From Ananas comosus (taxonomy: Eukaryota > Streptophyta > Magnoliopsida > Poales > Bromeliaceae): DNA of 64,000 bases. Of the stretch, positions 14,475 through 14,927 are shown piece by piece; position 1 is the first letter of the stretch; each line of letters begins with the position of its first letter. The notes beneath the pieces were generated by a model. That model did no database searches. It was not told where the DNA came from and saw only the letters and a program-made list of their open reading frames with translations. The DNA lies in NCBI RefSeq assembly GCF_001540865.1, contig NC_033637.1, positions 8,406,344 to 8,470,343 of the forward strand, read 5' to 3'. Made by a program: the position numbers and the translations under genes.

Positions 14475-14927
14475 ATGGAGAATAAAGTGATAGTAAGAGA
14501 GTCCTACAAAAATCTACTTCAAGAATACTATCAAAAGATGAAGATGTCGCTGCCACAATATCGCACTTATCAAGAAGGACCTATTCACATTTCGGAATTT
14601 TATTTGTTTGTCGAATTCGGAAATTTCACTTATATGGGCAATGTAAAAAAATCAAAGAAGGATGTGGAACAAGATGCGGCACATTTTGCTTTTATGAGTA
14701 CCACATGTATGGTTTCTCTTGATCAAAGAAATTTGTATTTAGAGAAACTTGCAAAAAATTTGGAAAAAGAAAATATGGCATTGAATTTGGAGAATAAATC
14801 CCTAGAGAATGCAACCAACGAGCAGGCCTCCAAAATTAGGAGTTTGATTTCAGACAAGATAGTCTTATAGGAAAAACTCCAAGATTATGAAGACCCAATC
14901 GAAGAAGACATCGATAGTTTTGCATAA
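14475..14927 (+). CDS. dsRNA-binding-domain ORF carried by copia element
   Basis: The predicted protein begins MENKVIVRESYKNLLQEYYQ. Residues about 10-78 look like one double-stranded-RNA-binding domain: helix 1 (SYKNLLQEYYQK), a beta stretch with YQEGPIHISEFYLFVEFGN, and the C-terminal basic motif KKSKKDVEQDAAHFAF, whose lysines and AA pair are typical RNA contacts. A leucine- and lysine/glutamate-rich coiled coil follows (about 90-125). A TAG at 14868 interrupts the frame; reading continues 18 codons to TAA at 14925, ending DPIEEDIDSFA, so the TAG may be a single C-to-T change from CAG. The ORF sits directly before the polypurine tract and 3' LTR, where copia elements normally carry nothing. 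The plant DRB or Dicer-partner family is the closest domain type I recognise. Function is unknown; binding of the element's own or silencing RNA is inference. Confidence 0.75.

Follow-up and report, generated by a model that had tools for sequence, protein, structure and literature searches.

A window of 64,000 nucleotides from the pineapple genome (Ananas comosus, contig NC_033637.1, positions 8,406,344 to 8,470,343 of the forward strand) harbors a Ty1/copia retrotransposon in which an additional open reading frame (ORF), encoding a protein with a double-stranded RNA (dsRNA)-binding domain (dsRBD), stands just ahead of the 3′ long terminal repeat (LTR). We conclude that its copia family has in this ORF an accessory gene that is old and selected, because it recurs together with the LTRs across copies, is present in every copy that could be traced from RNase H to its 3′ end, and has evolved under purifying selection. 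The ORF, at 14475-14927, is part of one element that was later split by nested insertions, and the features of that element, with the domains of the encoded protein, are as follows.

334..653, plus strand: 5′ LTR (TGTTAG...CCAACA), matching the 3′ LTR in blastn at 89% over 217 nt and 96% over 122 nt
655..668, plus strand: primer-binding site, decayed (TTGGTATAAGGGCC), assigned by reading
2739..3194, plus strand: gag (PF14223, E 7e-26)
3928..4455, plus strand: gag-pre-integrase and integrase core (PF13976, E 3e-15; PF00665, E 4.2e-13)
5134..5914, plus strand: reverse transcriptase, in two frames (PF07727 [RVT_2], E 1.6e-61 and 4.1e-19)
6100..6664, plus strand: RNase H, start approximate, assigned by reading; a repeat lies inside it at 6246-6492 and a Ty3/gypsy remnant truncates it at 6664
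14121..14474, plus strand: spacer and putative internal promoter of the ORF, with TGTGTC boxes and TATAAATA at 14412-14419, 63 nt 5′ of the ATG
14475..14927, plus strand: accessory ORF for the protein with a dsRBD and a long helix, with a stop at codon 132 in the window copy
14505..14684, plus strand: dsRNA-binding domain, residues 11-70 (PF00035; model of an open relative; Foldseek match 2n3h)
14718..14888, plus strand: long helix (probable coiled coil), residues 82-138, predicted in the open relative P0002 and transferred by alignment; the window frame is cut at codon 132
14935..14944, plus strand: polypurine tract adjoining the 3′ LTR, assigned by reading
14945..15824, plus strand: 3′ LTR, interrupted at 15148-15702 by a nested TRIM-like element and unbroken in a duplicate of the locus on C1

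The domains stand in the copia order of PF14223, PF00665, and PF07727, in which integrase precedes a reverse transcriptase (RT) of the RVT_2 type, and the LTR pair has TG...CA ends and a 5-bp target duplication (CAAAA at 329-333 versus CAAAT at 15825-15829, four of five bases alike). The two LTRs differ by a Kimura two-parameter (K2P) distance of 0.077 over 317 sites. An earlier note on this DNA, made from the letters alone, had placed the ORF within the reverse-transcribed unit, and that placement stands: the split 3′ LTR has its 5′ partner at 334-653, with gag, integrase, and RVT_2 between them, and the ORF ends exactly 17 bp before the LTR start at 14945, as had been claimed. The gag-pol that the note called neighboring (2739-6664) does belong to the same element as the ORF, but about 7.5 kb of other repeats lie between RNase H, which runs to 6664, and position ~14121. 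We place the resumption of copia sequence at ~14121 because 14121-14240 recurs, wholly or partly, 5′ of the ORF in other copies; the two RNase H segments adjoin each other in several other copies.

The frame opens with an ATG at 14475 and closes with a TAA ending at 14927, exactly as first described, and its sole in-frame stop is a TAG at codon 132 (14868-14870). Against Pfam dsrm (PF00035, curated cut-off 23 bits) the window frame scores 41.2 bits (E 2.6e-10) over residues 11-70, and the dsRBD-like segment that had been read from the letters is thereby borne out. Four open copies elsewhere in the genome, of 150, 150, 150, and 156 amino acids (aa), score 53.9, 49.3, 47.0, and 39.8 bits. An AlphaFold model of an open copy, built with host dsRBDs in the alignment (mean pLDDT 84.1), places a helix at 11-21, strands at 28-34, 41-48, and 51-54, and helices at 61-76 and 82-138, so that a profile match above the cut-off is joined by the predicted alpha-beta-beta-beta-alpha fold of a dsrm protein; an earlier model, from six sequences without host dsRBDs, was poor (mean pLDDT 69) and did not show the dsRBD fold.

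Among solved structures, Arabidopsis DRB4 is the best match, and best over its second dsRBD, with E 2.6e-15 for the window frame and 2.3e-19 for a six-row profile; Foldseek likewise ranked DRB4 dsRBD2 (2n3h) first. Against viral models Foldseek returned many dsRBD proteins, including poxvirus ones named as PKR inhibitors, a likeness that indicates fold, not function. In an alignment of six element and six host domains, K62 and E65 are found in all 12 sequences and at least 90% share K61 and H38, and we take the conserved lysine-motif positions to be those that contact RNA in canonical dsRBDs. The likeness to plant DRB proteins has a clear limit: DRB1 to DRB5 carry two tandem N-terminal dsRBDs, whereas the window copy and all four open copies each contain one dsrm stretch, with a long helix behind it, in an element-borne protein. 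A DRB-like dsRBD without the tandem second domain of DRB4 (structure 2n3f has both) lends some support to the idea that the host, rather than the element's own RNA, is the protein's target; it might, for instance, be a dominant-negative partner altering small-RNA pathways or stress responses, with the element gaining indirectly. We consider this improbable, and sequence cannot separate it from a model in which the protein counters silencing.

The ORF is no peculiarity of the window. We searched the pineapple genome, one plant genome of 381,958,007 bases, and obtained 43 ORF matches, which sort by eye into 37 at 22 element loci (the window included, and one locus with the C-terminal part alone) and six exons of host DRB-like genes. 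At all 20 fetched loci the ORF is followed downstream by a same-family LTR, partial in some, which rules out a host gene alongside which an LTR happened to insert; family gag or pol in the same orientation lies within the fetched 10 kb at 14 of the 20. An RNase H query of 172 bases gave 13 genome matches, 10 of them with the ORF downstream (window and its duplicate counted). The other three comprise an interrupted copy on C23, in which another repeat starts ~300 nt beyond the RNase H match (L048, 1.7 kb), and fragments on C4 and C17. Every member of this RNase H-anchored set that can be traced to its 3′ end thus has the ORF. Gag matches without a nearby ORF at C10:5.15M and C3:7.52M are fragments that end at or shortly beyond gag; gag-only matches on C10:6.06M, C21, C22, C20:6.98M, and C11 were left out of this comparison. 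The ORF therefore lies in the same place, in sense orientation between pol and the 3′ LTR, in most family copies. The earlier note had proposed looking for further copies with the ORF between RNase H and the 3′ LTR, and the search found many, across the 22 loci; the two observations on which it had staked its idea, a dsRBD profile match and an ORF in the same place in other copies, were both made.

One of these copies, at C1:14.74-14.76 Mb, is a segmental duplicate of the window locus: it shares the gypsy and Helitron-like inserts of the window and its 3′ flank, without the TRIM, and these shared inserts and flank rule out two separate insertions. The earlier note had taken a hint from the fact that only one stop interrupts the frame. 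One stop there is, but because the C1 copy is a segmental duplicate and no independent insertion, the stop common to both counts once.

The nested inserts were delimited by reading. A Ty3/gypsy remnant, from 6665 to ~11521, is joined directly to the cut copia RNase H; its 5′ part is gone and its 3′ LTR lies at ~9732-11521. Positions 14096-14120, which abut the resumed copia sequence, resemble a Helitron 3′ end (CCCGCCGCATCGCACGGGTTACTAA); the labels Ty3/gypsy and Helitron-like are those we presume to apply. Within the copia 3′ LTR, the TRIM-like mini element at 15148-15702 has terminal repeats, a TGGTATCAGAGCC primer site, and GTGAA duplications, and the C1 duplicate presents the corresponding empty site.

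The ORF evolved under purifying selection. A codon model fitted to eight loci without frameshifts, with stops masked, gave a dN/dS ratio (nonsynonymous to synonymous substitution, omega) of 0.42, with a log likelihood of -1487.24 versus -1499.10 at omega 1 (twice the difference, 23.7). Two of the eight are the window/C1 duplicate pair, and 13 frameshifted, split, or heavily broken loci were excluded. Against the most diverged copy, on C24, the ORF gives dN/dS of 0.24-0.42 at dS of 0.54-0.75, and where synonymous change is sufficient (21 pairs) the dsRBD (0.16-0.73) and the C-terminal half (0.16-0.42) are both below 1. The same comparison with C24 yields 0.37-0.51 for gag and 0.39-0.41 for integrase, and shallow gag pairs reach 1.2 and above. 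The suggestion of stronger constraint than on gag-pol thus holds in part, since the ORF is clearly constrained and, by the comparison of ORF, gag, and integrase against C24, is constrained like gag-pol or somewhat more. The companion suggestion of later acquisition is not supported: the ORF is present in all members followed from RNase H, including the deeply diverged C24. The dS of the ORF against C24 exceeds that of gag and integrase (0.31-0.40), possibly through recombination between subfamilies. A chance ORF is ruled out by the dsrm E-value, the recurrence at 22 loci, and an omega below 1.

The origin of the domain can be approached through its host relatives. The dsRBD of the open copy P0002 is 37-49% identical to the six pineapple host dsRBD exons and 48% identical to DRB4 dsRBD2, and a short unrooted tree separates the element dsRBDs, with support 97, from the host paralogues sampled. 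A recent capture is ruled out by the divergence of C24 together with the low identity to host dsRBDs; either the capture appears to be old or the domain may have evolved fast. The description of the ORF as a captured host DRB-like gene accordingly survives in modified form: the dsRBD is nearest to plant DRB proteins and capture is likely, but it would be an old capture, nested with no single host exon.

Relatives beyond the family are few. No viral contig among those searched contained one. Protein searches returned one close protein from Ananas comosus, a 70-aa fragment from ENA that resembles the C-terminal helix, and two dsRBD proteins that are distant; a further search, with longer candidates, had no match at E 0.001. 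The ENA fragment, P0006, lies on a contig of 1194 bases and shares 66% identity with the C-terminal helix across 39% of the query, and because of this match the copia family may exist outside the pineapple assembly. Protein P0007 (236 aa) has an N-terminal dsRBD like that of the ORF and a second Pfam domain, PF18475, in an unrelated context. A sister family (RT 62-63% identical), drawn from 150 scored of 1968 RT candidates, showed no significant dsRBD match within 8.6 kb, but its LTRs were not located, and for that reason it does not date the capture.

A subfamily without pol gives a second view of gene capture in the same lineage. Copies on C7, C290, C17 (10.09 Mb), and C1 (19.4 Mb), each of ~3.4-3.7 kb, consist of LTR, gag, spacer, dsRBD ORF, and LTR, with no pol match between the LTRs of any of the four. 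Their primer sites are readable and run TTGGTATCAGAG in all four copies read, which we take to resemble initiator Met tRNA. They occupy separate sites with separate target duplications (five of five bases in C7 and C290, four of five in C17 and C1:19.4M), and their LTR K2P distances are 0.018 (C7), 0.003 (C290), 0.021 (C17), and 0.033 (C1). The pol-less gag (gag, zinc knuckle, and the start of protease) reads on into ~240 residues of coiled coil; a single frame runs from gag into the segment, though not through all of it, in L024 (491 aa) and L030 (439 aa), and the whole segment is open in none of the pol-less copies read. In L022 three stretches of the segment match a host gene on C4, of 417 nt (95.2%), 206 nt (95.1%), and 218 nt (88.1%), and the element lacks ~1.37 kb of host sequence (GT...AG) that separates the last two. 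With this intron missing, the copia family must have acquired the coiled-coil segment from a spliced host mRNA, which makes the same route likely for the dsRBD. Pfam, NCBIfam, and PDB searches gave no name for the host gene; we take it to resemble CRWN/NMCP nuclear proteins. The members that join gag to the host piece are L022, L024, L030, and L034, and also C13:11144396-11147261, which has the coiled-coil segment, gag, and LTRs but a dsRBD ORF reduced to its end.

In the available excerpts of PMC8704663 and PMC6022998, TR-GAG elements, which have LTRs and gag without pol, were shown to transpose in Arabidopsis. The pineapple subfamily resembles them in that architecture but departs from their plan of a single gag ORF, keeping the dsRBD ORF and adding a segment of host coiled coil to gag. 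The loss of pol with gag and the dsRBD preserved is consistent either with a role tied to RNA or to the particle or with a chance placement of the deletion. The main rival to an anti-silencing role is that of a Gag cofactor in packaging or replication, in which the dsRBD protein would act with Gag to bind structured genomic RNA (dimer or primer-site helices) inside the particle or would serve as an RNA chaperone for reverse transcription. Besides the pol-less copies, it can claim the copy on C9, where the ORF follows a gag match within ~80 nt. We nevertheless judge it unlikely, for the ORF is separate, with its own putative promoter and no Gag fusion, the closest solved relatives are DRBs of the silencing pathway, and other copia families, to our knowledge, do without a dsRBD ORF. 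The C9 copy (L023, near base 2390, minus strand) joins gag to the start of the dsRBD, apparently via a shared short word, CATGGAGAA, as if by template switching.

The sequence ahead of the ORF bears on how the gene would be expressed. The full-length copy L036 has 389 nt between the end of pol and the ATG. An exact TATAAATA stands 63-72 nt before the ATG in 7 of the 10 leaders checked, with near forms in some others and a rearrangement there in the C9 copy, and TGTGTC occurs in 9 of 10 leaders and in 10 of 10 stretches of the LTR U3 region (the LTR start of L026 was set by position for this count), as against none in the 4139 nt of the window gag-pol and 13 in the whole window. In two of five copies, a local alignment of leader to LTR scored higher than all 200 shuffles. 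A separate transcript for the ORF is plausible on this evidence.

We propose the following sequence of events. The gene would have come long ago from a spliced host DRB-type mRNA, and its transcription would start from a TATA promoter of its own, in which the TGTGTC boxes of the LTR U3 recur. The protein, 150-156 aa long, has a single DRB4-like dsRBD and, by prediction, a long helix at its C-terminus; it would dimerize through that helix, bind dsRNA formed by element transcripts, and keep it from Dicer-like processing; alternatively, it would draw host DRB/Dicer partners into complexes that are unproductive. According to the excerpted text of PMC3836500, DRB4 belongs to the Dicer4 complex, and the caulimovirus (pararetrovirus) suppressor P6 probably acts by interacting with DRB4. 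We favor an anti-silencing role on account of that precedent and because the nearest solved relatives are silencing-pathway DRBs. That the conserved DRB4-like gene is an anti-silencing shield supplied by the element is a tentative reading, to which we would give somewhat less than an even chance. The fuller scenario, in which the family domesticated such a gene under an LTR-like promoter as a dsRNA shield or Dicer decoy, is possible yet doubtful.

Several observations weigh against the anti-silencing reading. A dsRBD is compatible with many RNA roles, and none of the six pineapple dsRBD exons nests with the element dsRBD as a donor. The leader resembles the U3 only weakly in local alignment: in the other three leader-to-LTR alignments, 8, 17, and 67 of 200 shuffles reached the observed score. 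Pairwise dN/dS for the ORF spans 0.20-0.84 over all 28 pairs, and a full open frame persists at just 4 of the 21 loci having the ORF start. Of all the insertions, C290 has the LTRs most alike (1 difference in 328), yet its ORF contains three stops; such a copy implies that the ORF is not strictly needed in cis, and it probably moved with help in trans. Such decay would suit a passenger, a host fragment without function for the element like many one-off captures in LTR retrotransposons: 17 of the 21 copies are now broken, an insertion with nearly identical LTRs has a stop-filled ORF, and the family also acquired a second host gene piece. A passenger would hardly show purifying selection, however, nor the same place in all members followed and in a diverged member, nor a shared leader before the ATG that is recognizable in most of the 14 copies listed (C9 is rearranged, C24 diverged); we regard it as decidedly improbable.

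Among the open-access literature matches listed, none describes a copia element with a dsRBD by its title or the start of its abstract, and the terms dsRNA and RNA-binding are absent from the main texts of PMC6317226 and PMC13317346. Plant LTR retrotransposons with aORF-3S (PMC7264820, in excerpt) are alike in the position between pol and the 3′ LTR, the sense orientation, and the presence in most copies; their sense aORFs are env-like, whereas the pineapple family has a dsRBD in Ty1/copia. The Ty3/gypsy elements of Phalaenopsis with a 2-ODD RNA demethylase ORF (PMC9289625, in excerpt) likewise captured a host-type RNA-acting domain and retained it as an extra ORF, but they are Gypsy and carry another enzyme domain. 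The excerpted portion of the same paper reports a screen of 121 angiosperm genomes that found 15 extra domains (at least five consensuses per species), every one of them in Gypsy elements; Copia had none, and dsrm is not named there. An extra sense ORF before the 3′ LTR is thus a known kind of feature, and the dsRBD in a Copia element appears to be the new part, among the literature listed and as far as these excerpts go.

RNA-based silencing is the main restraint on plant LTR retrotransposons, and we know of few that encode anything against it. The VANC protein of Arabidopsis transposons is unrelated to the pineapple dsRBD protein. The two share the concept of a transposon gene set against host silencing, a role that we only propose for pineapple; VANC acts on DNA methylation (PMC5735166, in excerpt).

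Since dsRNA is the trigger of the RNA-silencing defense of plants, a dsRBD gene may help the element to survive that defense. The pol-less relatives show gene capture twice, at different times, within one family. A conserved dsRBD protein related to a Dicer partner makes retrotransposon anti-silencing testable with one small protein and, if the proposed role is true, it would be a retrotransposon counterpart of the viral suppressors of RNA silencing.
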